Origin: Candidatus Tectimicrobiota bacterium | GTDB lineage: Bacteria; Tectomicrobia; Entotheonellia; Entotheonellales; Entotheonellaceae | Direction: 5' to 3' | Length of the DNA: 64,000 nucleotides | Assembly: GCA_026005175.1 (NCBI GenBank) | Contig: BPKO01000012.1 | Span: forward strand, 62,001 to 126,000 | In this document: positions 1,960 through 20,211 of the stretch, in pieces | How positions within the stretch are numbered: position 1 is the first letter of the stretch | How the letters are laid out: every line of letters begins with the position of its first letter | Program-made: the position numbers and the translations under genes | The notes under the pieces: model-generated | What the model saw: the letters and a program-made list of their open reading frames with translations, nothing else | Database searches by the model: none | What the model was told of the DNA's origin: nothing

Positions 1960-2916
1960 TCAGGAAAAGGAAGGCGAAAGGGTGACGTCGGGGACCGCGG
2001 TGGCAAAATCGGCAAGTGTCGCCACTTCTACCCGGTTGCGGCCGTGGCGTTTGGCCCGGTAAAGCGCCGCGTCGGCAGCGGCGATCAGCGCCGTGTCGTC
2101 GGCCTGGGGATGGCGCGACGCCACCCCCAGGCTCAGGGTCAGGGCGAGCTTGCCCTCGGTGAGCAGCAGGGGCTCGGCGGCAATCGCCTCGCGCAGCCGC
2201 TGCGCCAGGGCCAGCGCGGCGGCCGCGTCGCACCCGGGCAGCACCAGCAAGAACTCCTCGCCGCCGTATCGCCCGATGGCGTCGTAGGGGCGCACGGCAG
2301 CCCGCATGCGGCGGGCCGCTTCGCGCAGGGCCATGTCCCCGGCCAGGTGGCCGTAAGTGTCGTTGATTTTCTTGAAGTGGTCGAGGTCGGCGAGCACGAC
2401 GCTGAGCGGGGCTTGCGTGCGCCGCGCCCGCTCCAGTTCCTGGCGCAGCATGCTCAAGATGGCGGCGCGGTTCCACAGGCGGGTGAGGGAGTCGCGCATC
2501 GCCTGCTCGCGCAGCGCCTCGCGGGCAAAAATGAGCTCCGCTTGCAAGTCGAGGATGCGGCGGCCGGCGCGCAGGCGCATGCGCAGCTCGTTGGTATCAA
2601 AGGGCTTGGTGAGGTAGTCGTCGGCGCCGGCTTCCAGCCCGGTGATGATGTCGGACTTCTGGCTGCGGGCGGTGAGCAGCAGGATATAGACATAGGGTTC
2701 GGCCGCGCGGGTGCGCACGGCGCGGCAGACCTGGATGCCGTCCATCCCGGGCATCATCCAGTCCAGGATGACCAGCTGCGGGGCATCGGCCTGCTGCAGG
2801 ATCTGCCACGCCGTGGTGCCATCGGCACAGGCGATCACTTCGTAGCCCCAGCGGCGCAGCGTGGCCTCGAGCAGGCGGCGGGACACCGGATCGTCTTCGG
2901 CAATAAGCACTTTCAT
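1960..2916 (-). CDS. response regulator with GGDEF domain (diguanylate cyclase, PleD-like)
   Basis: 318 residues. Residues 1-120 form a CheY-like receiver with acidic pair D8/D9, phospho-acceptor D52 in LDWMMPGMDG, T82 and K104. Residues about 140-310 form a GGDEF cyclase domain with active-site GGEEF at 217-221, predicted to make c-di-GMP from two GTP when phosphorylated. RPYD at 208-211, exactly five residues before GGEEF, is a complete inhibitory I-site, so product feedback is expected. No cognate kinase is adjacent. The match of all key residues makes an active enzyme likely. Its product is the ligand of the riboswitch found at 13292-13382, so the two could form one circuit, although that link is inferred only from proximity. 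Confidence 0.93.
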   Translation of the reverse strand: MKVLIAEDDPVSRRLLEATLRRWGYEVIACADGTTAWQILQQADAPQLVILDWMMPGMDGIQVCRAVRTRAAEPYVYILLLTARSQKSDIITGLEAGADDYLTKPFDTNELRMRLRAGRRILDLQAELIFAREALREQAMRDSLTRLWNRAAILSMLRQELERARRTQAPLSVVLADLDHFKKINDTYGHLAGDMALREAARRMRAAVRPYDAIGRYGGEEFLLVLPGCDAAAALALAQRLREAIAAEPLLLTEGKLALTLSLGVASRHPQADDTALIAAADAALYRAKRHGRNRVEVATLADFATAVPDVTLSPSFS

Positions 2917-3023: not shown

Positions 3024-4496
3024 TTAGAACACCGGCAGGCCGGCCGTGAGGCTCAGGGTGACGCGGTTTTCGTCAAAATCCGCCCCGGCCACGTTGGAGT
3101 CGCGGCGCTGGTAAGCGTAAGAGAGGGAAAGGGAGACGGCGCGCAGCAGCGCGTAAGACACGTTGGCGCCGGCGCGCCAGACAGTATCCTCGCGGTCCGG
3201 CACCGCCTCGCTGGTGCCAAAGGCTTCCAGCAGCTCGGTGCGCGCCAAGCTGGCAAAGAGGGAGGCCAAGAGGCGGCGCGAGGCGGCGTGGTTGAGGGTC
3301 AGGGTCAGGGAGCGCTGCAGCACCAGGCCCACGTTGTCGACTTCTGCCACCGTATCCGTCAGGCTCTGGCGCCCCGTGAGCGTCAAGGTGGTCTGGCGGG
3401 CGCGCAGCAGCGGCAAGGCGCCGTCCAGGTCGACCTGCCAGTTGAGGAAAACCTCCGGATCTTCGCCTTCTTGCTCGAGCACCGTGGCCCCGGCAGACAC
3501 GAAGAGGGCCAGAAACGGCGTGAGCTGCTGGCGCAGGCCCAAGTCGGCGCCGTAGCGGCGAGCGTCCTGGCCGCCCCGGGAGCGCTCAGTGAGCGCGCCA
3601 AAGGCTCGCCCCGTAAGAATCGTCCGGCGCCCGGCCCGGTAGTGCAGGCTCAGCGAGACGTCGTGCCCCTGCGAGTCGGTCGCCCCTTCGCTGTCGGTGA
3701 GATCAAAGCCATAGCGGAAATCTCCCTCCAGGCGGCGGCTGAAGCGGTGCGTAAGGCCGGCGCTGACAGCATGCCCCACGGTGTTGTCGTCCTCGCGCGT
3801 GGCAAACAGCGGCGCCAGCGGCCCGCGGGTTTCGGTTTCGTTGATGACCAGGGTGTTGGTGTAGCCCAGCGTCACCTCGGTCAAGCGGCTGAGGGCCACG
3901 CGGAGCTGGGGGCTGAGGCGGTTGCGGATAAACGTGCGGCGCTCGCGCCGCAAGCCGGCGAGCGAGGCCACCTGCGGGTCGTCGTCGCGCACGAAGCTGT
4001 CGCTTAGCGCCAGCGACAGCCGCGGCAGCTGGTAGCCGGCGATGAGGGCGAAGTTGGCAAAGGCAACGCGACCCTCTTCGGCCCGCGCCTCGTAAAGGGC
4101 GCTGAGGGTGTTGGCCAGGCTCAAAAAGCCGCGCTCGCGCTGCAAGCGGTAGACGGTGTTGAGGCTGGCCAGGGTGCGAAACTCCTCCTGCGGGTTGTCC
4201 GGGCGCTGGAAAAAGTTGTCCGAATAGTCTTCGGCCAGCGACACCGCCAGGAAAAGGCGGCCGATGTCGCGGCGCAGCCGCAGCAGCGTCTCGAGCGGGG
4301 GATTGGGCGGCACCTCGCGCGCCATCCAGGTAAAGGGCTCCGGCACCGGTGCCAAGAGGCGCTCCTGAGGCGAAGGCAACGGCCCGGGCACCACCACGGG
4401 TGGCTCGCCCGCTTCCTGCGCCCGCACCCCCCGGCCTGCTACCACCCAGAGGAACCCCAGGCTGATCAGCCCCACCCAGAGTGCTTTTGGCCTCAC
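3024..4496 (-). CDS. PEP-CTERM-system-associated outer-membrane beta-barrel protein
   Basis: 490 residues if started at GTG 4496, which has AGGGAG and AGGAAG upstream and is followed by a clean signal peptide (ALWVGLISLGFLWVVAGRG then A-x-A). The mature protein is a run of alternating polar/hydrophobic strands and ends in LSLTAGLPVF, with the terminal Phe typical of outer-membrane barrels. Length, strand pattern and position next to prsT fit the uncharacterised barrel family regularly found with exosortase A loci (TIGR03016-like). Its job is not established; a role in export or anchoring of the polysaccharide or of sorted proteins is a guess. It is transcribed away from prsT. Confidence 0.72.
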   Translation of the reverse strand: MRPKALWVGLISLGFLWVVAGRGVRAQEAGEPPVVVPGPLPSPQERLLAPVPEPFTWMAREVPPNPPLETLLRLRRDIGRLFLAVSLAEDYSDNFFQRPDNPQEEFRTLASLNTVYRLQRERGFLSLANTLSALYEARAEEGRVAFANFALIAGYQLPRLSLALSDSFVRDDDPQVASLAGLRRERRTFIRNRLSPQLRVALSRLTEVTLGYTNTLVINETETRGPLAPLFATREDDNTVGHAVSAGLTHRFSRRLEGDFRYGFDLTDSEGATDSQGHDVSLSLHYRAGRRTILTGRAFGALTERSRGGQDARRYGADLGLRQQLTPFLALFVSAGATVLEQEGEDPEVFLNWQVDLDGALPLLRARQTTLTLTGRQSLTDTVAEVDNVGLVLQRSLTLTLNHAASRRLLASLFASLARTELLEAFGTSEAVPDREDTVWRAGANVSYALLRAVSLSLSYAYQRRDSNVAGADFDENRVTLSLTAGLPVF

Positions 4497-4725: not shown

Positions 4726-7025
4726 ATGCCTTTGCGTGGTTGGTTGCGACAGGCAAGCGTGGTGGGGCTGGTTGCCGGGATGGCCCTGGGGCTCATCGCC
4801 TGCGGCCAGGACGCCCAGGCGACCAAAGTGGCCCACGTGCAAAAAGGCGAGGCCTACTTCGAGGCAGGGAAATACGCCGAGGCGATCATCGAGTTCAAAA
4901 ACGCCGTGCAGCTGGACCCCAACGATGCGCAAGCGCACTACAAGCTGGCCCTGGCGTACTTGAAAAAAGGCGGTCTCGCTGGCCTCCAGGAGGCCTTCCG
5001 GGCGCTCAGCAAAGCCGTACAGCTGGACCCCGACAACCTCGACGCCCAGCTCAAGCTGGGCGAGCTCTACCTGCTGGCCAAGCAGTTTGACAAGGCGCTG
5101 GAAAAGGCCAACTTGGTGCTGCAGCGCGACGCCGACAACGCCGAAGCCCACATCCTGGCCGGCAACGCCCACGGCGGGCGGCAAGAATTCGACCAGGCCA
5201 TTGCGGCGCTGCGTACTGCCGTGCAGCTTGCTCCCAAGCAGGTGCAGACTTACTTGAACCTGGCCCTCCTTTACCGGGCCAAAGGCGACCTGGCCGCCGC
5301 CGAGCAGACGTACCAGCAGGCGCTTCAGGTCGACCCGCGCTCGGTGGCTACTTACCTGGCCCTGAGCAGCTTTTACGCCACGCAGCGGCAGTTTGACAAA
5401 GCAGAAGCGGCGCTCAAGCAAGCCCTCGCCCTGCAGCCGCAGGACGTGGCCCTCTACTTGCAGCTGGCCAGGCTCTACGCGGTGCAGCGCCAAGAAGACC
5501 AGGTGGTGGCCACCCTGCGCCAGGCGGCGTCTTTGGCGCCGCAGGACATGCGGCCGCACTTGGCGCTGGGAGATTTTTACGCCGCGCTGGGCAAGCTCGA
5601 CGCCGCCCAGGCCGCCTACCAGCAGGCGGCCACGGTGCAGCCCGAGGCGGTGGTCCCCTGGCAGAAGCTGGCCGAGCTGGCCCTGCGCCAGCGCCAGCTC
5701 GCGCAGGCCGAAGCGCACCTCGCAGAGATCTTCAAGCGCAACAAGGATGACCTCCTCGGCCACTACCTGCGCGGGCGCCTGCTGCTGGCCAAGGGGCAGC
5801 CTGCCGAGGCCGTCGTGACTTTGCAAAAAGTGGTCAAGGAGGCGCCCAACCTGGCGGCCGCCCACTACTTCCTCGGCCTGGCCCACCTGCGCAACCGCAA
5901 CGTGCAGCTCGCCAAGGCGGCCTTCACCGAAGCGGTGAAGCTCTGGCGCCGCGCTTTGCCGAGGCGCGGCTGGCCCTGGCCGAGCTGTTCCTGCGCGACC
6001 GCGCCTTTGACCTTGCCCTGCAAGAGGCCAACACGGTGCTGCAAGAGCAGCCCAAGCACCTGCGGGCTTTGCTTCTTAAGGGCCGCGCCCTGCTCGGGAA
6101 AGGCGAGGCCGCGCAGGCCGCCGCCGCCTTTGAGGCCGTCACCCGCGAAGCCCCCGAGGAAGCGCTGGGCCACTACTACCTGGGGCTGGCGTACCGCCTG
6201 CAACAGCAGCCGCAACCGGCCCTGGCAGCGTTTGAGCGGGCCCTGGCGCAGAACCCCGACTTCGTCAACGCCCTGGAGCAGATTGCCGCCCTCCACCTGG
6301 CGCAGGGCCAGCCCGCGCAAGCCCTGGCCCGGGTCAAGGCGCACCTCGAGAAGGTGCCCAAGAACGCCCTTGTCTACAACCTGCTGGGGCGCCTTTACGC
6401 CGCCCAGGGGAAGGACGCCGAGGCAGAAGCGGCCTTCAAGCAGGCCATTGCCCTGGACGAGACCCTGTTGGTGGCTTACCTCAACCTTGGGAATCTCTAC
6501 GCCAAGCAGCAGGCGTACGACCGGGCGATTGCCCAGTACGAGGCGGTCATCAAGGCCAATCCCGACCTCCTGCCGCCTTACATGCTGCTGGGGGTCATTT
6601 ACGACCGCCTTGGCCAGCCCGACAAGGCCAACGCGTACTACGAGAAGGCGCTGGCGATCAATCCCACTTTTGCCCCGGCGGCCAACAACCTGGCCTGGAA
6701 CTACGCCGAGTATGGCGGCAACATCGACGTTGCCCTCTCCCTGGCGCAGACGGCCAAGGAGCAGCTGCCCGAGGCGCCGGCGGTGTCCGACACCCTGGGC
6801 TGGATTTACTACAAGAAAAACGCCTACACCAAAGCCATTAGCTTGCTGGAAGAGAGCGCCGAGCAGATGGCGGACAACCCGCTCGTCCACTACCACCTGG
6901 GCATGGCGTACTACAAAAAAGGCGACCACGACCGGGCGCGGGAGGCACTGGAGCGGGCCCTGGCGCTGAGCGAGGACTTCCCCGGAGCCGAAGAGGCGCG
7001 CCGGGTGCTCGAAGAAGTGCGGTGA
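4726..7025 (+). CDS. prsT: PEP-CTERM system TPR-repeat lipoprotein PrsT (frameshifted)
   Basis: Begins at ATG 4726 behind AAAGGGAG. The signal peptide ends in the lipobox LIAC with Cys26, so the mature protein is a lipoprotein. The rest is about twenty tetratricopeptide repeats (A-x-x-x-Y-x-x-A-L patterns such as AVQLDPNDAQAHYKLALAYL). Length (about 766 residues) and lipobox-plus-TPR layout match PrsT, which accompanies exosortase A and is thought to scaffold polysaccharide or PEP-CTERM protein export at the membrane. The reading frame shifts near 5945: upstream TPRs read to EAVKL, and the continuation RFAEARLALAELFL lies one base back, so one base is missing in CTCTGGCGCCGC. Both halves are otherwise undamaged, which suggests a sequence error rather than a dead gene. 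Confidence 0.88.
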
Positions 7026-7097: not shown

Positions 7098-7763
7098 CTA
7101 GGGTGTCATGCGGACCGCTTCTCCAGCGCGACGCAAGCGACATCGCTTTCTGCCCCACAGGCCCAAGCCGGCCAGGCCGCTGGCCAGGAGCAGCGCAGAG
7201 GCCGGCTCCGGATTGGGAAGGGTGGCGACCTGGCCAGCCAGGACGGTGTTGCCCCAGAGGACCAGGCTGAGCGTCCCGGTGTAAGGGTGCGTCATGGGCG
7301 GCGGCGTGATGCCGTAGTAATCGCTCAGCGTTTCTTCCATGGTGCCAAGAAACGACACCGTCAGCACCGGCCCCAGCAGCGTGCTGCCGGTGAGCGAGCC
7401 GCTGAGCAAGAGGCTTCCCGGCGGCAAGTCATCGGTAAAATCGCCATCGCCGTCGAGGTCCACGCCGCCGCTGAGGCTAAGGGTGCCCGCGCCAAAGTCA
7501 AGGACCAGGCTGCAGCCGGTGCACCCTTTGCTTTCCCAGCTGTGTAGCGGCGTGTCGCCGCCGACGATCTGGTCCACGGCGAGGGTGTAGCTGCCGCTCA
7601 AGTCGAGCGGGCCGCCAAGCCCCTGCGTGGGGAGCTCGAAGTTGATAAAGCTGCTGGCCAGCGCCGCCTTAGGCCCCAGTGCCACCAGCAGCGTCGCCAC
7701 CATCCCGATGCCGGCACGGGCCAGCCAGGGCATAAACCCTTTCTTTCCCACAGACCTCCTCAT
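7098..7763 (-). CDS. PEP-CTERM sorting-domain protein (small, secreted)
   Basis: 221 residues from ATG 7763, chosen because AAGGAG lies seven bases upstream (an upstream in-frame GTG at 7784 has no such site). An N-terminal signal segment (MVATLLVALGPKAALAS) is followed by a low-complexity Gly/Ser/Leu/Asp-rich body containing VDLDGDGDF, a possible calcium loop. The C-terminus is a textbook exosortase signal: NPEPASALLLASGLAGLGL, then WGRKRCR and basic residues. By family knowledge the exosortase cleaves near PEP and the protein goes to the surface or extracellular matrix. A near-perfect sigma-54 promoter sits at 7815-7830, and the regulator genes prsR and prsK lie upstream, so PrsR control is likely. 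The body resembles no family I recognise. Confidence 0.9.
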   Translation of the reverse strand: MRRSVGKKGFMPWLARAGIGMVATLLVALGPKAALASSFINFELPTQGLGGPLDLSGSYTLAVDQIVGGDTPLHSWESKGCTGCSLVLDFGAGTLSLSGGVDLDGDGDFTDDLPPGSLLLSGSLTGSTLLGPVLTVSFLGTMEETLSDYYGITPPPMTHPYTGTLSLVLWGNTVLAGQVATLPNPEPASALLLASGLAGLGLWGRKRCRLRRAGEAVRMTP

Positions 7764-7814
7764 AGGCCGTCTCCTTCTTACCACCTTGCCGGTGCGGTAC
7801 TGTCTGGCACAGGC

Positions 7815-7830
7815 AGCAAAAGGCGTGCCA
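7815..7830 (-). promoter_or_regulatory. sigma-54 promoter of the PEP-CTERM gene
   Basis: On the minus strand TGGCACGCCTTTTGCT matches the sigma-54 consensus TGGCACG-N4-TTGCW at every informative base, with exactly ten bases between the -24 GG and the -12 GC. Transcription would start near 7803, about 40 bases before the start codon at 7763. Sigma-54 promoters need an activator such as PrsR, encoded immediately upstream. Confidence 0.85.
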
Positions 7831-7983: not shown

Positions 7984-9307
<1,324 letters not shown>

Positions 9308-9333
<26 letters not shown>

Positions 9334-11451
9334 CGCGGGATTCCTCCTCCGGAGTAGCAAGCGGCAGCCACACGCGGAACGTGCTCCCTTTGCCTTCTTC
9401 GCTCTCGACCTCGATGCGGCCCCGGTGGGCTTCCACGATCATCTTGCTGTGGAAGAGGCCAATGCCCAGGCCGCCGCGCTTGGTCGTCTGAAAGGGCTGA
9501 AACAGCGAGGCTTTCAGGAACGCCGCCGGGATGCCGCAGCCGTTGTCGCTGACCGCCAGGACCACGTATCCCCCCTCTTGCCAGGTGCGCACCCGGATTT
9601 CTCCCTGGCCAGCCACGGCGTCGTTGGCGTTGAGCAGCAAGTTGACCAAGACCTTCTGCAGCTGCTCGGCGTCCAGCCACGCCGGCGGCAGCGGCTGCAG
9701 CTCCAGCACCACCGGGGCGCTGAGCGCGCCGCGCAGCTCGGCCACGGTGTCGCGCACCAGGGCATTGACGTCGGTGGCCGTGCGCCGCAGTTCCAGCCTG
9801 GCGGTAAGCAGCGAGAGGCGGCTGCACATGTGCTGCATTTTGGCGACGCTGGTGCGCATGAGGCGCAGCGCTTCGGCGCGAAAGGCCGCGTCGTGGTAGT
9901 GGGTTTCGAAGTTCTCCATGAGCAGCGACAGCCTGGCGGCGAAGTTTTTCAGGTCGTGAACGAAAAACGCCGCCATGGTGCGCAGGGTGTCGAGCTGCTT
10001 GCTGCGCGCCAAGCGCTCGGAGAGCTGGAGGTTGAGCAGGCTGGCGGCCGTCTGGTCGGCGATGGTTTTGAGCAGCTCCGTGTCTTCGGGCGTAAACGGC
10101 TCGCCGGTCAGGCGCGCGCTCAGGGTCATCAGGCCAAGGAAGTGCTGGTTGGCCATCAGGCCGACCGCGTAGCGCACCTGCAAGGACCTGCCAGGTCTGG
10201 GCGTAGGCCTGCGCCAGGGCCGCTGCCCGGCGCTCGCGCGGCGCGCCAAGATCGAGGGGAAGGGGCTGCCGGGCCAAGTAGCGGGCCAGTTCGGCCAGCC
10301 CCGCGGCGGTGGCCACCAGGAAAGGGGGCTCGCTGTCAGAAAACACTGTCGAGCCCCCCAAGACAGGGTGCCCGTCTTGCTCGGCATCAAAAAGCCAGAG
10401 GCTCACCGCCGGCGTGCCAAACACCTCTGCCACGCGGCGCGACACCACGGCACAGAGGGCGCGGGCATCGAGCACCGAAGCCGTCTGCTGCGTGAAACGT
10501 GGCCCACTCGTGGCGGTAGTCGTAGCGGGAGCGGTAAAAGTGCCGGCTGACAAAGCCCTTGAGCTGCTGGCGGAGCTGGTTGGAAAGCAGCACCACCATA
10601 AGGCCCAGCAGGGCTAAAAACATAAAGAGGGTGCTCAGGGGCAGAACCTCGCTGTGGCCGACGTCGCGGATGACCCTGGCCAGCAGGCCCACCGCGACGA
10701 GGTAGCCGCCGGCCACGAGCACGGTAAGGGAGCCGTAGAGGGCGGTGCGCGACAAGTACAGGTCGACGTGCAGCAGGCGGCTGCGCACCAGCCCCAGGGC
10801 CAGCAGCACGGTGGCAGCGGCCAAGGCGCAAGACTGCACGGTCTCCAGGCGGACGTAAAGCGAGGAAAAAAGCAGCGACTGGCTGTCGGTATAGACCTGC
10901 GCCGCGAAGATGCTACCCACACCCAGGAGGACGAACTTGACCTGCCAGCGCTTGATGCCGCCGGCCGCGCGCAGGGTGCTTTCGAGGTTGGCCAGAATCG
11001 CCAGGGACAGCAGCAGGTCCCAGAGCACCAGCAGCCTGCCGGCCCAGTTCAGGCGCAGCAGCACCCCTGGGGGGGCCAGCGCTTCCGGAGCCCAGCCCAG
11101 CAAGCCCCCGGTGCTCAGCAGCAAGGCAAAGGGAAAGGCGCCGGCAGCGCCCAGTGCCCACCGCCACCGGCGCAGGAGCTGGCGCCAGTTGGCGCGGCCA
11201 AAACACAGACTAAAGAGCAGCCAGACAAGCGGAATCAGGGCTTCGGCGAGCCACAGCGCCCGCTGCCAGAGCGCCCACGGCAGCACGCCATCCAGGTACA
11301 GAGCGGCCAGCGCCTCGCGTGCGGCCAGCAGTCCCATGCCGGCAACAAAGAGGCGCGTTACCGCCGACGGCGGCGCTTTCCACCACGTAACGCCCGCCAG
11401 CACCGCGCAAAGCAAGGCGCTGCCAAAAGCAAGGGCGGCACTGAGGCTCAT
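9308..11451 (-). CDS. prsK: PEP-CTERM system sensor histidine kinase PrsK (two frameshifts)
   Basis: Starts at ATG 11451 behind GGGAGG. About 713 residues once two single-base insertions are allowed for. Order: about eight membrane helices (roughly 1-290), a GAF-like sensor region around TASVLDARALCAVVSRRVAE, a histidine-phosphotransfer segment with FFVHDLKNFAARL, and a C-terminal ATPase domain with N-box NLLLNANDAV, DNGCGIP and GGLGIGLFHSKMIVEAHRG. The frame jumps near 10503-10505 (an extra G in TGGGCC, minus strand) and near 10184-10185 (an extra C in GTCCTTG). Removing them restores HEWPRFTQQTAS and TWQVLQVRYAVGL. The kinase pairs with PrsR downstream and follows epsI by 24 bases. The shifts look like sequence errors; a real disruption would uncouple PrsR. 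Confidence 0.88.
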
Positions 11452-11475: not shown

Positions 11476-12120
11476 CTAGCCCGGCAGGTAGGCTTGCAAG
11501 AGGGGAAAAATGGCTTCGGCAAACGCTTTACCGTGACGAAACGCTTCTGCCTCGCCGTCGCCGGCAAAAGGTACGGTGACGCGCACAAAGGCGCCGTCGG
11601 TGCGGTTTCTGAAAATGGCGTCGAGGACCATGTACACCTTGGCCCAGTACTCGCTGGTGAGAATGCGGCCGCGGTCCTGGTACCAGTAAAGCACCAGCTG
11701 CCGGTCCAGCCCTTTCTGAATGACGAAGCGGTTGATTTCCACCGGGCGGCCGTGGGCGTCGCGAACCTCGAGGCGCACTTTGTCTTTTTTGAGAAACGAC
11801 CAGCCGCTGCCGGGAAGGCAGTTTTTGGGCGAGTGGTAAGTGGCCCCCTGGCGCTGGCTAGCGTAGTAGCCCACGTAGAGCCCAATGGGTGGCCCCTGCG
11901 GCCGCTGGTACTGGCGCATCATGTAATCGGTGACCCGCAGCTTGTCCAGCACTTCGGGATCCAGCCCCAGCTCCTTGCCTTGCCAATCCCCAATGTACAG
12001 GGGAAAGGTGGCAAAGGTCTGGCGCAGCGGCACCGCTTCGCCGTGCGACAGCGAGCGCATGCCCAAGCCCGCCGCTACCAAGAGGCCGCTGGCGAGAAAC
12101 GCGCGGCGTGTGATTCCCAT
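11476..12120 (-). CDS. epsI: exosortase-associated EpsI-family protein
   Basis: 214 residues from ATG 12120 with AAGAAGGGAAGGG upstream. It opens with a single signal/anchor segment (RRAFLASGLLVAAGLGMRSL) and continues with the EpsI-type periplasmic domain: FPLYIGDWQG near 40, YYASQRQGATYHSPKNCLPG near 105-125 with its conserved H-S-P-x-x-C-L-P-G, and LVLYWYQDRGR near 145. EpsI accompanies or is fused to exosortases and is thought to assist processing of sorted proteins; its chemistry is unknown. It lies 14 bases after the exosortase gene in the same operon. Confidence 0.92.
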   Translation of the reverse strand: MGITRRAFLASGLLVAAGLGMRSLSHGEAVPLRQTFATFPLYIGDWQGKELGLDPEVLDKLRVTDYMMRQYQRPQGPPIGLYVGYYASQRQGATYHSPKNCLPGSGWSFLKKDKVRLEVRDAHGRPVEINRFVIQKGLDRQLVLYWYQDRGRILTSEYWAKVYMVLDAIFRNRTDGAFVRVTVPFAGDGEAEAFRHGKAFAEAIFPLLQAYLPG

Positions 12121-12134
12121 AGCCCTTCCCTTCT

Positions 12135-13010
12135 TCAGCGTCGTCGCAGCCGGCTCAGCAGCAGGCCTTCCAAGACCAGGAGGGCAAAGGCGACGACAAA
12201 CACCAGCCAGCCGGCAAACGTATGGTAGAAGTCCTCTGCCACACGCGGGCCAAAGAAAAAGGCCAGCACGCCGCTGCCCCAGATGCGAAACGCGTTGGCC
12301 ACGATGGCAATGGGGATGGCCGACAGGGCGAGTAACCCGCGTTTCCAGTTCACCGCCTGGGTCAGGTAAGCAAACACCACGGCCAGGGCGCTCAGCGACA
12401 CCAGCGAGCGAATGCCGCTGCACGCCTCGACCACTTCCAGAGTAATGTGCGGCAGAAAGATGACGTTGCCCTCGCGGTAAACCGGCAGCCCGACGAGCTG
12501 CAGCGCCGTCGTTGACAGCTTGGCGGCCAGCAGCTGCAGGGGAAACGTGAGGGCGTTGAGGACAATCGCCGGCAAGGGAATCATGAACAGCAAGAAGCCC
12601 ACGGGAAACGCCAGCTGCCGCAAGTAGGGCCAGCCCAGAAGATAGAGCAGCAGGCCGGCCACCACCACCACCATGGAGACGCGCATGAGGAAGAGTTCGG
12701 CGCCGAGGTTGCCCAGCAGGGCCAGCCCCACCCCCAGCAGCAGCACCCCCAGCCCCCAGGCACTGGGCCGAGGGCGCAGCCGGGCAAGCAGCGGCCGCTG
12801 CCGCCAGGCAAAGTAGGCGCTGAGCAGCGGCACCAAAAAGCCGTGCGAGTAGTCGGGATCGTCCCACCACTGCGCCGCGAGCGGCACCAGCACTGGCAAA
12901 TAGAGGTAGACAAACGCCGCCACCAGCCCGGCGGCGAGCACCACGCCGCGCCCGCCGCGCCGGCCAGAAGGCGCGCCACGGGGTACGGTATCGGTAAGCG
13001 TTGCCGGCAT
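12135..13010 (-). CDS. xrtA: exosortase (XrtA/EpsH-like transpeptidase)
   Basis: 291 residues from ATG 13010 with AAGGAAGG upstream. About eight membrane helices. The invariant triad is present: Cys197 in VEACSGIRSL, Arg242 in NAFRIWGSG and His263 in FYHTFAGW. These are the residues that cleave PEP-CTERM signals in the inner membrane. The N-terminal W-D-D-P-D-Y-S-H-G-F motif (49-58) is also typical. Separate EpsI plus neighbouring prsT, prsK and prsR point to the XrtA type; other exosortase subtypes would show the same triad. First gene of the exosortase-epsI-prsK-prsR operon. Its clients in this window are the proteins at 7098-7763 and 16763-17468. Confidence 0.94.
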   Translation of the reverse strand: MPATLTDTVPRGAPSGRRGGRGVVLAAGLVAAFVYLYLPVLVPLAAQWWDDPDYSHGFLVPLLSAYFAWRQRPLLARLRPRPSAWGLGVLLLGVGLALLGNLGAELFLMRVSMVVVVAGLLLYLLGWPYLRQLAFPVGFLLFMIPLPAIVLNALTFPLQLLAAKLSTTALQLVGLPVYREGNVIFLPHITLEVVEACSGIRSLVSLSALAVVFAYLTQAVNWKRGLLALSAIPIAIVANAFRIWGSGVLAFFFGPRVAEDFYHTFAGWLVFVVAFALLVLEGLLLSRLRRR

Positions 13011-13291
13011 AGGCCTTCCTTTAGCTTGCAGGGTCTTTACGCAAGGATCGGCAAAAACTGCAGCAAACTTGAGCACGCGCTTCCCCTGGCGCGCGCTTGC
13101 CGCCTGGCACGTTGTCAAGTGCAATTCCACTTATCCTGCCACAGACAGCAGCCGATAAGGGGCACGACGGCCTCCCGCGCCCTGCCCCCCTCCAGCTAGC
13201 GGCGGACGCTCCGGCGGGAAGGCGGGAGCCGCAACTCGTAAGGAGGACAGCAACAGCGCTTTTGTCACCTGCGTCGTAAGCGCAGAAGCAC
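13011..13291. promoter_or_regulatory. divergent control region upstream of the riboswitch
   Basis: First part of the 447-base gap between the exosortase operon (minus) and the repeat-protein gene (plus). The exosortase ribosome site is at its left end. GCCGATAAGGG at 13151-13161 recurs at 17879-17889, in both cases upstream of a plus-strand secreted-protein gene, and equals a FliA-type -10 box, but no matching TAAA -35 is present at the usual distance. A TGGCAC at 13105-13110 lacks correct sigma-54 spacing. No coding potential seen. Confidence 0.35.
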
Positions 13292-13382
13292 TTCGTCCGA
13301 CCAAAGGCAAACCAGCAGCAATGCTGGGACGCAAAGCCTCCGGTCCCGGCGCCTGGCCGGGATAGCGGGGTTGCTCGACGAA
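13292..13382 (+). promoter_or_regulatory. c-di-GMP-I (GEMM) riboswitch
   Basis: The plus strand carries the conserved aptamer in order: AAAGGCAAACC (13303-13313), a first hairpin CAGCA-GCAA-TGCTG with a GNRA loop, GGGACGCAAAGCC (13326-13338), a second hairpin TCCCGG/CCGGGA, then ATAGCGGGGTTGC (13362-13374). Outer strands TTCGTC (13292-13297) and GACGAA (13378-13383) can pair as P1. These are the hallmark bases of GEMM-I RNAs that bind cyclic di-GMP. It lies 75 bases before the start codon of the repeat-protein gene at 13458. A hairpin that hides that gene's ribosome site follows at once. Confidence 0.94.
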
Positions 13383-13395
13383 ATGCTTCGCGGCG

Positions 13396-13450
13396 CCTCC
13401 CTGAAGGTCAGCGCGCGAGCATTTCGCGAGCGCAGTGACTTTCAGGGAGG
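13396..13450 (+). promoter_or_regulatory. ribosome-site-sequestering hairpin (riboswitch expression platform)
   Basis: CCTCCCTGAAGGTCA (13396-13410) pairs with TGACTTTCAGGGAGG (13436-13450) at 14 of 15 positions. The right arm contains AGGGAGG, the ribosome site for ATG 13458, so the hairpin should block translation. The inner part pairs CGCGA with TCGCG. A competing pairing exists: AAATGCTTCGCG (13381-13392), which abuts the aptamer's P1 strand, is nearly complementary to CGCGAGCATTTCG in the loop arm. Formation or loss of P1 on ligand binding could therefore select between the two folds. The direction of control is not decided by sequence alone. Confidence 0.75.
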
Positions 13451-13457
13451 AACAAGC

Positions 13458-16400
13458 ATGCCCAGACAGCGATATGCGGTTGTCCTTGCTGCGCTCATGG
13501 TGTTGCTCTTCACGCTGGCAGCCCAGGCAGGCCAAGTACAGCTTGCCTGGGATCCCCCGACCACCAATGCCGACGGCACGCCGCTGACCGACCTGGCCGG
13601 TTACAAGCTCTACTGGGGCCGCAGCAGCCGCGGCACGGCGCAGCACCCCAGCACTTTTGCCTACGAGTTTGTGGAGGTAATCGGCGACCCGACCGCCACC
13701 ACCGCCACCCTTACCGAGCTGCTCGAAGGCGAGACTTACTTCTTTGCCGTCACCGCTTTTGATACTTCTGGAAACGAGAGCGACTTCTCGAACGAGGTGA
13801 GCACCACCATCGCCACCACCACCGAGCCGCCGGTGGTGGCCTTCAGTGCCAGCCCGACGGGCGGCGTGGCCCCGCTCACCGTGGCCTTTAGCGACGCCTC
13901 GACGGGCACCATCACCGCCTGGCACTGGGACTTTGGCGATGGCACCACGAGCAGCACCCAGCATCCCAGCCACACCTACACCGCCCCGGGCATGTACACG
14001 GTGAGCCTCACCGTCAGCGGCCCTGGCGGTGAAGCCACGATGACCAAAGCCGACTTCATCACGGTCAGCGCCGCCGATCCTTCTACCCTGGTGCGGCTGT
14101 ACGTGGCTTACGACTCGCGCGCCAGCAAGTACCCCCGACTGGCTCACCGCCTCCTTTACCAACACCGGCCAGACGGTGGGCACCACCGACGTGCCCCTTA
14201 CCGTGTGGCAGCGCGAGGTGCCAGCGGGCACCATCACCCTGCCTGGCAACAAGTACGGCAACCCCACCGGAGTGGGATCCAATTACATCGTCTTTATCGA
14301 TCCCAACGGCAACGGGGAGGTCAGCAACCTCAGCCCTGCCGCGTACCAGCTGGCCACCCTGGGCGTAGGAGACCCGTACTACATCGACCGCAGCTACACC
14401 ATCACGTCTCTGCCCGCCGCGCTGGCAGGTCTGGTGGCCATCAAGACCGCCAACAACGACAAGAACAACGCCCAGGAAGCCTTCATCACTTTTACCGTCG
14501 CTGCCGCGGCGCCGCCGCCCTCGCAGTCGCCGCCCACCGCTGTCAATGACACGGCCACCACCGCCGAAGACACGGCAGTCACCGTGGCGGTGCTGGCCAA
14601 CGACAGCGACCCGGATGGCGACGCCCTCAGCGTCATGAGCTTCACCCAGCCGGCCAACGGGGTGGTGACGCACGACGGCTCGGGGGTTCTCACTTACACC
14701 CCGAAAGCCAACTTCCACGGCACCGACAGCTTCACCTACACGGTAACCGACGGCCACGGCGCCGACGTGGGCGTGGTGAGCATCGTCGTCACGCCGGTCA
14801 ACGACGCCCCGCTGGCCCTCGCTGACAGCATTACCACCGCCGAAGACACGGCAGTCACCGTGGCGGTGCTGGCCAACGACAGCGACCCAGACGGCGACAC
14901 TCTCAGCGTCATCTCAGTCACTCAGGGCGCTCACGGCACCACGGCGGTGCTAGCCGATGGTACGATTCGCTACACCCCGGCGGCCGATTACAGCGGCACC
15001 GACAGCTTCTCCTACACGGTGAGCGACCCCCACGGCGCCACCGCCACCGCCACCGTCAGCGTCACCGTTACGCCGGTCAACGACGCCCCGCTGGCCCAGG
15101 ACGATAGCGCCACCACTACTGCCGGTACCGCCGTGGTGGTCGCGGTGCTGGCCAACGACAGCGACCCAGACGGCGACACTCTCAGCGTCACCTCAGTCAC
15201 TCAGGGCGCTCACGGCACCACGGCGGTGCTAGCCGACGGCACGATTCGCTACACCCCGGCGGCCGATTACAGCGGCACCGACAGCTTCTCCTACACGGTG
15301 AGCGATCCCCATGGGGCCACCGCCACCGCCACCGTCAGCGTCACCATTGCTCCGGCGCAGTTTGTCATGCTGTGGCTCGAGGCCGAAGACGGTATGCTGC
15401 AAGCCCCCATGGCAGCCGCCTTCGACGAAGAAGCCGCCGGTGGGCAGTACGTCTGGGTGCCCGAAGCGCACGAGGACGTCCTCGACCCGCAGCAGCCGGG
15501 CGGGCTGGCCACTTACCACCTGGTGGTTCCCGAAGCCGGCACCTACGTCCTCTGGGGACGGGTGCGGCCCGGCGCCACCGGACAGGGTTCGTTCTACGTC
15601 TCCGTACTTCCAGGCGGAACAGCGAGTGCAGCGGCGGTAAGCGAAGTGGCGCCGGCGGCCTACGAGGTGGCACCGCTGCACACCGGCGACACCTACTACA
15701 TCGACCGCAGCTACGTGGTCACCGCCATGCCGCCCGAGCTTGAAGGCCTCACCGCCATCAAGACCGCCAACAACGACAAGTACAATGCCAGTGCCCAGTT
15801 TCTCACCTTCACCCTGAGTGGGCCGGCCACCCTCTATGTGGCCTACGACTCGCGCGCCACGCAGTATCCGGCCTGGCTGACGCAGGACTTTGTCAACACG
15901 GGGCTGGTGATCGAAACGGGCGACGTGCCGCTTGTCGTTTGGCAGCGCTCCCTTGCCGCGGGCACCCACAGCCTGCCGGGCAACTACTTTGGCAGCCCGC
16001 AGGGCGTGCACTCCAACTACCTGGTGCTGCTCGACCTGGGCGGCCAGGCCCCCGGCACCGGTTGTCGACCACCTGGTGTGGCGCTTCTCGGTGCCGCAGG
16101 AAGCCGCAGCGGCGGTAAGCGAAGTGGCGCCGGCGGCCTACGAGGTGGCACCGCTGCACACCGGCGACACCTACTACATCGACCGCAGCTACGTGGTCAC
16201 CGCCATGCCGCCCGAGCTTGAAGGCCTCACCGCCATCAAGACCGCCAACAACGACAAGTACAATGCCAGTGCCCAGTTTCTCACCTTCACCCTGAGTGGG
16301 CCGGCCACCCTCTATGTGGCCTACGACTCGCGCGCCACGCAGTATCCGGCCTGGCTGACGCAGGACTTTGTCAACACGGGGCTGGTGATCGAAACGGGCG

Positions 16401-16702
16401 ACGTGCCGCTTGTCGTTTGGCAGCGCTCCCTTGCCGCGGGCACCCACAGCCTGCCGGGCAACTACTTTGGCAGCCCGCAGGGCGTGCACTCCAACTACCT
16501 GGTGCTGCTCGACCTGGGCGGCCAGGCCCCGGTGCCCGGCTGGCTGTGGAGCCAGGCGGGGGCGGACAGCATGCCCGTGCTCTTCCTCGATGCCGGTGTG
16601 TACACGCTGGTCATCAAACAGCGCGAAAGCGGGACGCAGCTCGACCGGCTGTTGCTCACCAGCGACGTCGAGTACGTCCCGCAGGGTCTCGGGGAGATGT
16701 AG
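13458..16702 (+). CDS. secreted FN3 / PKD / cadherin-like repeat protein (matrix or adhesin type; two frameshifts)
   Basis: About 1,080 residues from ATG 13458 after allowing for two extra C bases. Order: signal peptide ([15 protein letters not shown]); fibronectin-III-like domain (about 25-115); PKD domain (about 120-205, [12 protein letters not shown]); a module with LYVAYDSRA and YYIDRSY; three cadherin/VCBS-type repeats of about 93 residues ([26 protein letters not shown]); a CBM-like domain (LEAEDG to [10 protein letters not shown]); and two identical [16 protein letters not shown] modules. No PEP-CTERM tail or other anchor is seen. The frame shifts at C5 runs 14132-14136 and 16049-16053; the duplicate copy of the second site has C4 and reads through. 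Expected outside the cell in the matrix or on the surface. Controlled by the c-di-GMP riboswitch upstream. Confidence 0.85.
14863..15348 (+). repeat. tandem cadherin-like DNA repeat, 279-base period
   Basis: Bases 14863-15069 and 15142-15348 are nearly identical (a handful of differences, mostly third positions), each encoding ND-S-D-P-D-G-D through the TVSDPHG strand. A more divergent third copy precedes them (about 14565-14800). The near-identity at DNA level implies recent amplification or gene conversion. Confidence 0.85.
15628..16530 (+). repeat. perfect 425-base direct repeat inside the repeat-protein gene
   Basis: Bases 15628-16052 recur at 16106-16530 with no difference that I could find by line-by-line comparison; the period is 478. 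Each copy encodes one complete YYIDRSY...LYVAYDSRA...[11 protein letters not shown] module. Identity extends through silent positions and ends within the C-run where copy one has five C and copy two has four. Confidence 0.92.
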
Positions 16703-16762
16703 CGGGTCGGCCTGCCCCGGCTGGCTACCCTGCCAGGGTCGCCAGCCGGGGTGAGGTGGCCA

Positions 16763-17468
16763 TCAGGCCGTTTCCTTTCGGCGCAGCCGCCAGGCGGCAA
16801 AGCCCACCAGGCCCGTTCCCAAGAGCAGCAGCGACGTCGGCTCCGGCAGTTCCGTGGCGGTGAGCTGCAGCTGGGCAAACGACACGATGGCGTCGTCGCT
16901 GTACTTAAATGGCAGCGTGTTGCCACTGCCCAGGAACAGGCTCATGATGGCGCTGGCGTCGTAGTAATCCAGCAGCTCCACGGTAAACGTAAAGCCGCCG
17001 GGGCCAGTGGGCACGGGCACCGTCAGCCCCAGCGTAGTATTCAGGAAAAGGGGATCAAACCCCGGCGCATCGATCAACACATCGTCCGACGCCACCAGCG
17101 AATCGGTGGTGTGGATCGTCAGCGTCAGCTGCGCCGAGATCAGCCCCATGCCCGGTGCCGTAAAGGTAGCCAGGGCCGGGATCGGCGTTGAAGTCAAACG
17201 TCCACAGGGTTCGCTCGTCAGAGCCGTTGCCGGCTTTGCTTCCCCCCTGCTCGATGATGGTGAAATCCCCGTTGGTGGTCGTGCTGCCAGGACCGCTGCC
17301 GCTGCTCAGCGGCGGCGTGGCGCTTCCCGTTGCCGTGTCGGTAATGGTCACGGTAATGGGCACTGCCGAGGCCACTGCCGGAAACAGCCAGGCGGCCATC
17401 AAGAACGCAGCCAGCACGCCAAGAGCGCGCATCCTGGCTTTCTGGAACCTAAACGTTGCTAGCTTCAT
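16763..17468 (-). CDS. PEP-CTERM sorting-domain protein (frameshifted)
   Basis: About 234 residues from ATG 17468 after removing one base. An N-terminal signal segment (LGVLAAFLMAAWLFPAVASA) is followed by a beta-strand-rich body of the kind often seen in PEP-CTERM proteins (WTFDFNADP, LTLTIHTTDSLVASDD). The C-terminus is a model exosortase signal: LPEPTSLLLLGTGLVGFAAW then RLRRKETA. The frame changes near 17173-17180, where an extra G or C in CCCGGCCC breaks DFNADP-ALATFTAPG; both sides read cleanly. A sigma-54-like promoter lies at 17533-17548 with two shared boxes upstream, so PrsR control is likely. Expected fate: exosortase processing and display or release with the polysaccharide. Confidence 0.9.
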
Positions 17469-17532
17469 GGGTACACCTCCATGGCAAGATTGATCGGTTG
17501 ACCCTCAGGCCATCCTCATGTCCCTTCCTGCA

Positions 17533-17548
17533 TGCCAGAAGCGTGCCA
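17533..17548 (-). promoter_or_regulatory. sigma-54 promoter candidate of the second PEP-CTERM gene
   Basis: Minus strand TGGCACGCTTCTGGCA: the -24 half is perfect and the -12 GC is ten bases beyond the GG, as required; TGGCA replaces TTGCA (one mismatch). The start codon at 17468 is about 52 bases downstream of the predicted transcription start. The first half equals that of the promoter at 7815-7830. Confidence 0.7.
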
Positions 17549-17754: not shown

Positions 17755-17940
17755 CGGAGCTTTGCGTTTCTTACTCGACACCGCAAGCGTCTCGCGGGCT
17801 GGCCCTGATACCTGTAAAAGTACCAGAGCCAGAGGGGCTGCCTCGTGACGCTTTTGCCTCATTTTTCTGCGGCGAGCTGCCGATAAGGGAAAGCGGGCCG
17901 CAGGGCCCATACCGGCAAAGGCTTGAAGGAGGAAGGTGCA

Positions 17941-20211
17941 ATGGCATGGTGGCGGATCAGGTGGCTGGCAGGCATGGTTCTTCTTGGCATGGTGCTGAGC
18001 AGCGCCGGCGTGGCGCGCGGGGCAGATAGTCCCCCTCGCCCGCCGGCGCTGCGGCTCCTGACAGACGCCCCCGCCCTGCCGGACCTCTCGGTGCGGCCGA
18101 CCATTTACGCCCATACCGAGCACCTTACCACGCTTGCGGCCAGCTACACGGTGTGGGTCCCCGAAGGCGACTTCTCCAACGAAGACGTCACCATTGCCGG
18201 AGAAGTCACCGGCGGCCGCCTGTGGTCGTCAAACAACGGGGATCGCTCGAGCCTTGCCGGCATCATTGAACACCTCATTCAGCCGGGGATGAGCGAGCGC
18301 GAGCAGGCCCTGGCCATCTGGCGCTTCATCGAACGCGAAACGTACGGTCACGGCAAGCCTTCCGATTACTTCCTGGCCCCGGGCAACCTCGAATGCCAGG
18401 GCGTTGCCGACACCCTGCTTGATCTCTGGCGGAATCTGGGCGGCCACTACCGCCGCTACGTGACCGGCGAAAACTCGATGCCCACCGGCGGCAACCACTA
18501 CACCTCCGAGCTGTTTTGGAACGGCAAGTTTCACATCGTCGACGCCAACCAGAACGTCTTTTTTCCCACGCCCTGGGGAGAGCTGGCAGGCTTTGAAGAC
18601 CTGGTCGCCGACAGCACGCTGTACCAGTGGCAAGAAAAAGGCAAGTTTGGCTACTATGCCCCTGTCAACCCCGATCCGAACTACGACTATGCACCCCACA
18701 CCGACCAGGAATACGTCCTGCCCATCAATCGCGTGCCCACTTACACCCTTGAGCTGCGGCGGGGCGAGCGGATGATTCGCCGCTGGTGGACGGACGGCGA
18801 GCCGCGCTGGGGGCGGCGTGACTTCAACGCCCGCGAGACGTTGGCGACCGGCATGGAACCCGAGCACGGGCTGACCACCGGGGAGCTGCGCCTGACCCCC
18901 GATTTTGCTCAGCCGCCGGACAACGTGCGCCTGAGCAACGTCCGGGTCACCGGCGCCGGCGCCGACGCCGTCCTCACCCCGGCGGATCCGTCTCAGCCGG
19001 CGGTCATCGAAGTGACCATTGCCAACCCCTTCCTGGCACGGCAAGTGCGAAGCTTTCTGCTCACCGGCAACCGGGAAGTGGCAGCCTGGGTGTCGGGCGT
19101 CTTCGAAGCCACCGGCCCGGGCGGCGAGGTGCGCATCTATGCCCGGGACTATGCCGAAACCCCACTTGAGACGTATACCGACTTGGGGCCGGTACCCCTG
19201 AGTGCCGCTTTCCAGGAAAAGGCCAAGGTCCAGCCTCTGGTGCGGCTCAAAGAGGGCGGCTCTGCCGAGTGGGGCCCCTGGTACCTCAACACCGAACCGC
19301 AGTTTCGCATCGTCATGCAGGGTAGCGTGCGCGTGCGGCAGCTGGAGGTGGTAGGCCAGTTCCAGTTCAACAGCCGCGCCCTGCCCGAGCTGCGCCCCGG
19401 GAAGCACAACGAGGTCTTCTTTGCCGCCGAGGCCATTGGGCCGCAGGGGGTAACCGTGACGCACCGTTTTCGCGAAAACACCCTGCGCTTTTCGGCCAAC
19501 CCCGTGCTCTACAACCCCAAAACGCAAAGTGGGCCGCCGCTTACCCTCACGGCGCGCGTTACTAACCGCGGCGGCGCCGAGGCCACCAACGTGGTGGTGG
19601 ACTTTCGCGTCGGCCCCGTTTACAAGACCGGGGTCAACATGTGGGACCTGGAGTCGATAGGGCGAGTGGTCATCCCCTCACTGCCGCCCGGCGCGTCGCA
19701 GGAGGTTTCCCTCGACTGGGACCTGCAGCGCATTCCGCCGTATAAGCCCATTGTGGGCTTCGGGCCGCACTTTGTCACCGTGGTCGTGGACCCTGACGAC
19801 GCCATTGCCGAAGCAGACGAGAGCAACAACGAGACGGGCCGCCTCCTCAACATCCTGCGGCCGGCCAACGTGATGACCCTGGCCAAATACCTCGCTTACG
19901 GTGACGGCTGGCTCTGGACGTGGGTGACGTATCCGGCCGCCACCCTCGACTCTCACGACGTCGAGCTGCGGGATGTCGAAGTGGAATTTCGCGACGGAGG
20001 ACCAGAGGGGAGGCTGCTGGGCCGGCGCACGATCCCGGTGATGCTGCACTCCGAAGCGACCGTGGTGGCCATTCCCGTAGCCACTCGCCCTGCGGGGCAG
20101 GTGACGGTGATCGTCGATCCCGACAATCGCATCCCCGAGCTCGACGAAAGCGACAACGTCGCCACCGGGCCAGTGCGCGACCAGGCCCCACCGGCGTGGG
20201 CGCGCCAGTAA
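17941..20211 (+). CDS. secreted transglutaminase-like protein with CARDB-type domains
   Basis: 756 residues from ATG 17941, with GAGGAAGG upstream. Signal peptide (LAGMVLLGMVLSSAGVARGA, cleavage near 28). A transglutaminase/protease-core domain around residues 115-215 keeps a plausible triad: Cys152 in LECQGVADTLLDLW, His186 in GGNHYTSELFW and Asp201 in FHIVDAN. The C-terminal half holds beta-sandwich segments; LTARVTNRGGAEATNVVVDF followed by VVVDPDDAIAEADESNN, and a second VIVDPDNRIPELDESDN near the end, are CARDB-type. No exosortase tail. Predicted to act outside the cell, possibly as a peptidase or cross-linker of matrix proteins. Divergent from a PEP-CTERM gene and sharing its control region, so co-regulation is plausible. 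Confidence 0.8.
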   Translation: MAWWRIRWLAGMVLLGMVLSSAGVARGADSPPRPPALRLLTDAPALPDLSVRPTIYAHTEHLTTLAASYTVWVPEGDFSNEDVTIAGEVTGGRLWSSNNGDRSSLAGIIEHLIQPGMSEREQALAIWRFIERETYGHGKPSDYFLAPGNLECQGVADTLLDLWRNLGGHYRRYVTGENSMPTGGNHYTSELFWNGKFHIVDANQNVFFPTPWGELAGFEDLVADSTLYQWQEKGKFGYYAPVNPDPNYDYAPHTDQEYVLPINRVPTYTLELRRGERMIRRWWTDGEPRWGRRDFNARETLATGMEPEHGLTTGELRLTPDFAQPPDNVRLSNVRVTGAGADAVLTPADPSQPAVIEVTIANPFLARQVRSFLLTGNREVAAWVSGVFEATGPGGEVRIYARDYAETPLETYTDLGPVPLSAAFQEKAKVQPLVRLKEGGSAEWGPWYLNTEPQFRIVMQGSVRVRQLEVVGQFQFNSRALPELRPGKHNEVFFAAEAIGPQGVTVTHRFRENTLRFSANPVLYNPKTQSGPPLTLTARVTNRGGAEATNVVVDFRVGPVYKTGVNMWDLESIGRVVIPSLPPGASQEVSLDWDLQRIPPYKPIVGFGPHFVTVVVDPDDAIAEADESNNETGRLLNILRPANVMTLAKYLAYGDGWLWTWVTYPAATLDSHDVELRDVEVEFRDGGPEGRLLGRRTIPVMLHSEATVVAIPVATRPAGQVTVIVDPDNRIPELDESDNVATGPVRDQAPPAWARQ

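Follow-up and report, generated by a model that had tools for sequence, protein, structure and literature searches.

The leader described here lies within a 64,000-nucleotide stretch of a Candidatus Tectimicrobiota genome (the window), among genes of an exosortase/PEP-CTERM system. Leftward of it, on the minus strand, are a divergent exosortase of the EpsH family (12135-13130; PF09721, 268.9 bits), an EpsI/exosortase C-terminal open reading frame (ORF) in another frame, probably separated from the exosortase by a frame break (11476-12870; DUF3485, TIGR02914), a PrsK-like histidine kinase represented by two overlapping ORFs (9308-11451: the C-terminal half at 9308-10390 and the N-terminal half at 10387-11451, both matching TIGR02916), and PrsR, the PEP-CTERM-box sigma-54 response regulator (7984-9360; TIGR02915, 627 bits against a cut-off of 502.6). 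The same side encodes an outer-membrane barrel protein that partially resembles PEP-CTERM-associated ones, with a score below the cut-off, and, next to prsR, a VPLPA-CTERM-like gene (7098-7784, minus strand) with a weak tail just below the cut-off. Rightward, a frame-broken PEP-CTERM protein gene (16763-17468, minus strand), convergent with the regulated gene, is followed by polysaccharide genes on the same strand. One PF07589 PEP-CTERM signal downstream of the leader is found here (16778-16846, minus strand); the first-pass annotation had placed the switch between the exosortase and PEP-CTERM genes. Downstream of the PEP-CTERM gene, a 762-aa ORF (17923-20211, plus strand) contains a CARDB domain, and its N-terminal part reads like a transglutaminase-type domain.

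A perfect sigma-54 site, TGGCACGCCTTTTGC (7816-7830, minus strand), lies 32 nt before the VPLPA-CTERM-like gene, and a site with one mismatch (17534-17548, minus strand) precedes the PEP-CTERM gene. Since sigma-54-like matches are, in total, no more numerous than expected by chance, these two sites rest on their position. No sigma-54 promoter within two mismatches was found before the riboswitch (12253 to 17533), and no promoter of the riboswitch transcript was recognized.

The gene downstream of the leader (13458-16702, plus strand) is present as three frames in the assembly and encodes a secreted protein with a signal peptide, an FN3 domain, a PKD domain, three Big_9/cadherin repeats and repeated sequence units, in agreement with the FN3/PKD/cadherin-like product proposed previously. 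The reading frame first shifts at a run of five C near 14130 and shifts a second time somewhere between about 16020 and 16110; the latter change falls between the copies of a 425-nt exact direct duplication (15628-16052 and 16106-16530), which is possibly an assembly artefact or a recent repeat expansion. Frame breaks are also present in 9308-11451, 11476-13130 and 16763-17468, i.e. in the PrsK, exosortase/EpsI and PEP-CTERM genes, and breaks of the same type in several neighboring genes make assembly error likelier than decay. As the first-pass annotation had stated, the protein lacks a recognized PEP-CTERM tail: none is seen at the apparent C-terminus, the frame breaks limiting the certainty of this observation, and the PF07589 match of the window is on the opposite strand. 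When the five genomes of the class were searched, the C-terminal repeat units had no homologues other than the window itself.

The leader contains a genuine class-I c-di-GMP riboswitch aptamer (GEMM-I; 13297-13379, plus strand). The match to RF01051 (c-di-GMP-I) at about these positions scores 65.7 bits, well above the cut-off of 35, and settles the covariance check that the first-pass annotation had proposed as its own test. The core motifs which that annotation had quoted are present where it placed them; in the first hairpin, GCAA closes the loop as expected for the class, but the exact form is CCAGC-AGCAAT-GCTGG. The ligand junction is closed by a P1 stem of about 15 bp (duplex energy -22.0 kcal/mol), the 5' strand of which (13285-13297) was delineated by RNA folding: 13285-13290 pairs with 13384-13389 and 13292-13297 with 13377-13382. 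In the rest of the genome, RF01051 has one further match (contig 6, 165990-166077, minus strand; 80.8 bits). This second aptamer precedes fimT/pilW-like minor pilin genes and a PilY1-like gene, and such a minor-pilin/PilY1 operon is a typical GEMM setting.

In the cmscan analysis of the whole 64-kb window, the one family listed above its gathering score was RF03167 (c-di-GMP-I-GGC), this output leaving out the overlapping lower-ranked members of a clan. RF03167 matches the same positions, 13297-13379, with 60.8 bits against a gathering score of 59 (E-value 7e-12). The identity of the ligand was approached through the contact bases. Published simulations of the cGAMP riboswitch place G8, A9, A11, A12, A14, C15, A41 and C75 around the ligand. 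By alignment, A14 appears to be equivalent to Vc2 G20 and to position 13306 of the window, A41 to Vc2 A47 and 13333, and C75 to Vc2 C92 and 13374. The window has G, A and C at these positions, the set of ordinary c-di-GMP-I aptamers; the C is invariant in 18 aptamers, and the G is replaced by A in the cGAMP-type aptamers of Geomonas silvestris (AAUAC). Despite the slightly better E-value of RF03167, these bases assign the aptamer to the ordinary c-di-GMP-I class (RF01051; Vc2, Cd1), with which it shares fold, conserved core and contact bases, and c-di-GMP is the probable ligand.

It is quite improbable that the RNA is a sensor of 3',3'-cGAMP or, functionally, a member of the c-di-GMP-I-GGC variant, although the E-value and the cGAMP type of the related Geomonas system point that way. 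The G at 13306 distinguishes the aptamer from 3',3'-cGAMP (GEMM-Ib) riboswitches. The name GGC presumably refers to a G at the second contact position, where the window has A. RF03167 as the true class was rejected on this base, at the GCGAA/GCAAA position where its consensus has G, and on its bit score, which is below that of RF01051; the 3' halves differ as well (AGCGGGGTT in the window, AGCCGGGCT in RF03167). The cyclase encoded in the window also argues against cGAMP. As the first-pass annotation had noted, a diguanylate cyclase is encoded at 1960-2916 (minus strand); it is a REC-GGDEF protein with the canonical motifs GGEEF, an RPYD inhibitory I-site and GHLAGD. The latter motif retains the Asp, a signature which we take to mean that the enzyme is not a cGAMP-making Hypr enzyme. 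In total, five GGDEF domains were found in the genome.

The first-pass annotation did not include an expression platform, but the leader was found to contain one, composed of four segments on the plus strand. Segment A (13373-13398) comprises the 3' strand of P1 with its flank. Its alternative partner, segment B (13410-13431), forms with it an anti-sequester stem of 19 bp, bulged in the A strand (-29.1 kcal/mol), which also takes up C13374. Segment C (13396-13410) is the anti-Shine-Dalgarno strand of a sequester hairpin and pairs without interruption over 15 bp (-28.8 kcal/mol) with segment D (13436-13450). The latter includes the Shine-Dalgarno sequence AGGGAGG (13444-13450), 7 nt ahead of the ATG at 13458, so that the hairpin buries the Shine-Dalgarno sequence of this start codon. 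P1 and A:B are mutually exclusive, as are A:B and C:D. The fold of region 13379-13460 has an energy of -46 kcal/mol (z-score -6.3), and none of 200 shuffles was equally stable; of 20,000 dinucleotide shuffles, one matched the strength of C:D, 33 that of A:B, and none both. The hairpin was also considered as a dispersed repeat, which was rejected, as an 81-nt probe from the leader matches the genome only once. The locus is kept in no close relative.

When the folding of transcripts of increasing length was scanned, the best structure contained P1 up to 13420, A:B from 13426 to 13440, and P1 together with C:D from 13442 onward. Over about 15 nt of transcription, A:B is thus the more stable fold, its advantage over P1 reaching at most 4.6 kcal/mol. 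For illustrative Kd values of 0.01-1 nM and 1 uM ligand, the effective binding energy is -4 to -7 kcal/mol, and ligand binding of this energy could suffice to keep P1 in place during the A:B interval. Irrespective of the ligand, the full-length RNA prefers the OFF fold by about 14 kcal/mol; a purely thermodynamic model therefore gives no switching, and the switch must be kinetic. In the A:B fold, part of C remains unpaired in the loop, where it could serve D as a toehold.

Based on these observations, the leader (13285-13457) probably functions as a class-I c-di-GMP riboswitch that kinetically controls translation of the secreted FN3/PKD/cadherin-repeat protein and acts as an OFF switch. With c-di-GMP bound, P1 would be held closed and segment A kept in it, C would pair with D, and the buried Shine-Dalgarno sequence would turn translation off. 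With no ligand, A would leave P1 and pair with B once the latter is transcribed; this pairing would take the ligand-pairing base C13374 and keep C from D, leaving translation on. The proposed mechanism builds on the aptamer match, the contact bases and the three exclusive pairings with their energies, from which we infer the OFF direction and a folding decision made during transcription. Both marks of a translational OFF switch, a sequestered Shine-Dalgarno sequence and an alternative pairing that competes with P1, are found in the leader. A co-transcriptional study of the Cd1 and pilM riboswitches reported that sequestering of the ligand-pairing C residue leads to loss of binding, the same event as predicted here.

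The predicted sign is the opposite of the usual expectation that matrix is up at high c-di-GMP. Adhesins are commonly raised by c-di-GMP, and the same aptamer might act as an ON switch, the ligand raising the adhesin-like protein via another pairing, transcription termination or mRNA stability. Loss of the cGAMP synthase GacA in Geobacter sulfurreducens lowers the transcripts that carry cGAMP-type GEMM switches, which is ON behavior, and the sign is therefore not conserved across the whole GEMM family. We nevertheless consider ON control unlikely for the window, because in the folds found P1 excludes A:B and A:B excludes C:D, which gives OFF, and because no intrinsic terminator was found on the plus strand. 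Still less probable, and the least likely of the alternatives weighed here, is a degenerate switch, that is, an aptamer-like sequence of no regulatory effect before a decaying gene. The two breaks in the target reading frame and the 425-nt duplication inside it would fit such decay, but the neighboring PrsK, exosortase/EpsI and PEP-CTERM genes are frame-broken too, which points to assembly error, and the aptamer and platform are intact.

The riboswitch and the cyclase in the window had together led to the proposal that the matrix protein and polysaccharide display are tied to one signal. As stated, this is not supported, and overall the proposal has support only in part: the action of the riboswitch is confined to the rightward transcript, and nothing ties the exosortase or polysaccharide genes to it. 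The VPLPA/PEP-CTERM-type genes with sigma-54-like sites, together with the PrsK/PrsR pair encoded in the window, suggest a separate input. The simplest reading is one of two inputs, PrsK/PrsR with sigma-54 for the sorted proteins and c-di-GMP for the FN3 protein.

The recurrence of this arrangement was assessed in 80 exosortase loci taken from named genomes with a four-sequence exosortase alignment (a nine-sequence one was too diverse), which were searched with a covariance model built from 18 GEMM aptamers. Four clear aptamers in three loci and one weak match were found; the three loci belong to a Nitrospira japonica metagenome-assembled genome (L132), Nitrospirales OFTM51 (L100) and Geomonas silvestris (L136; two aptamers of the cGAMP type). 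All four precede secreted proteins with an N-terminal FN3-type domain, the second one in Geomonas being a weaker, partial match, and the FN3 domain of L132 is 57% identical to that of the window over the domain. In Geomonas, both aptamers (3153-3229 and 6401-6477 of the locus) lie directly upstream of the exosortase gene, each ahead of a separate gene for a secreted protein. The FN3 family is present in six of the 80 loci, including all three with GEMM aptamers (hypergeometric probability about 2e-4, for an FN3 model that was built from the GEMM-linked proteins themselves).

The same caveat applies to an FN3 alignment search of 95 genomes of one other phylum (that of genome G089), in which 16 of the 30 best-matching loci (from 14 genomes) have a GEMM aptamer directly upstream on the same strand; 17 GEMM hits were found in these 87 kb. 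In this phylum, the exosortase is mostly on other contigs, and lies about 18 kb away in one genome. A hairpin close to the start codon (GGTGGTCTYCC...AAGGAGACCAC) is common to many of its leaders, as is a 5' segment, GGGAAGACC, whose sequence is complementary to the anti-Shine-Dalgarno side of this hairpin. Several related leaders have strong Shine-Dalgarno-proximal hairpins, and in 13 related leaders the Shine-Dalgarno side aligns poorly. The fold energy of individual leaders is mixed: strong for the window, L132, L163, L161, L175 and L151, and weak for others.

The GEMM link to the FN3 family is thus stronger than its link to the exosortase, and in several phyla the secreted N-terminal-FN3 family recurs as a target of cyclic-dinucleotide riboswitches, in some cases next to exosortase genes. 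As a tentative generalization, possible though short of probable, the family might be an ancient client of class-I cyclic-dinucleotide riboswitches in at least three phyla, often under Shine-Dalgarno-burying OFF control, with the ligand (c-di-GMP or cGAMP) swapped between lineages. In the subset beside exosortase genes, a signal-dependent loss of the adhesin-like protein would then be set against the PrsK/PrsR-driven display of PEP-CTERM proteins.

The cross-phylum pairing of riboswitch and FN3 protein and the ligand swap beside exosortase genes point to a widespread, little-discussed riboswitch target family, and the leader offers a concrete, testable regulatory link from c-di-GMP to a surface protein in uncultured bacteria. 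Should OFF control prove correct, the low-c-di-GMP state would include some adhesin-like proteins, contrary to the common rule that matrix is favored by c-di-GMP. In a partial literature search, no paper was found that makes such a connection between riboswitch, exosortase and c-di-GMP. In Geobacter, FN3 proteins have already been reported as targets of GEMM riboswitches: a GEMM riboswitch precedes the FN3 protein gene KN400_1971 (PMC13194489), which is probably the same gene as GSU1945 of G. sulfurreducens. The FN3 protein GSU1945 is among the riboswitch-regulated genes and is numbered beside the PEP-CTERM genes GSU1943/1944 (PMC10599522), and its upstream switch has GEMM-Ib status (PMC8835794).

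Among the known systems, the XrtA/EpsH PEP-CTERM system with PrsK/PrsR is matched in the window by PrsR above its cut-off, the PrsK-like kinase, the exosortase, EpsI, an XrtA-type amidotransferase and polysaccharide genes, whereas the riboswitch target is not itself a recognized PEP-CTERM protein. The OFF logic predicted here has been reported for Cd1, but Cd1 controls transcription, while control of translation via Shine-Dalgarno sequestration is predicted for the window. The 3',3'-cGAMP switch of GSU1945 shares its setting with the window, in that a GEMM-I type aptamer lies ahead of a secreted FN3 protein in the vicinity of exosortase substrates; it responds to cGAMP and acts as ON, whereas the window aptamer has c-di-GMP contact bases and a predicted OFF response.
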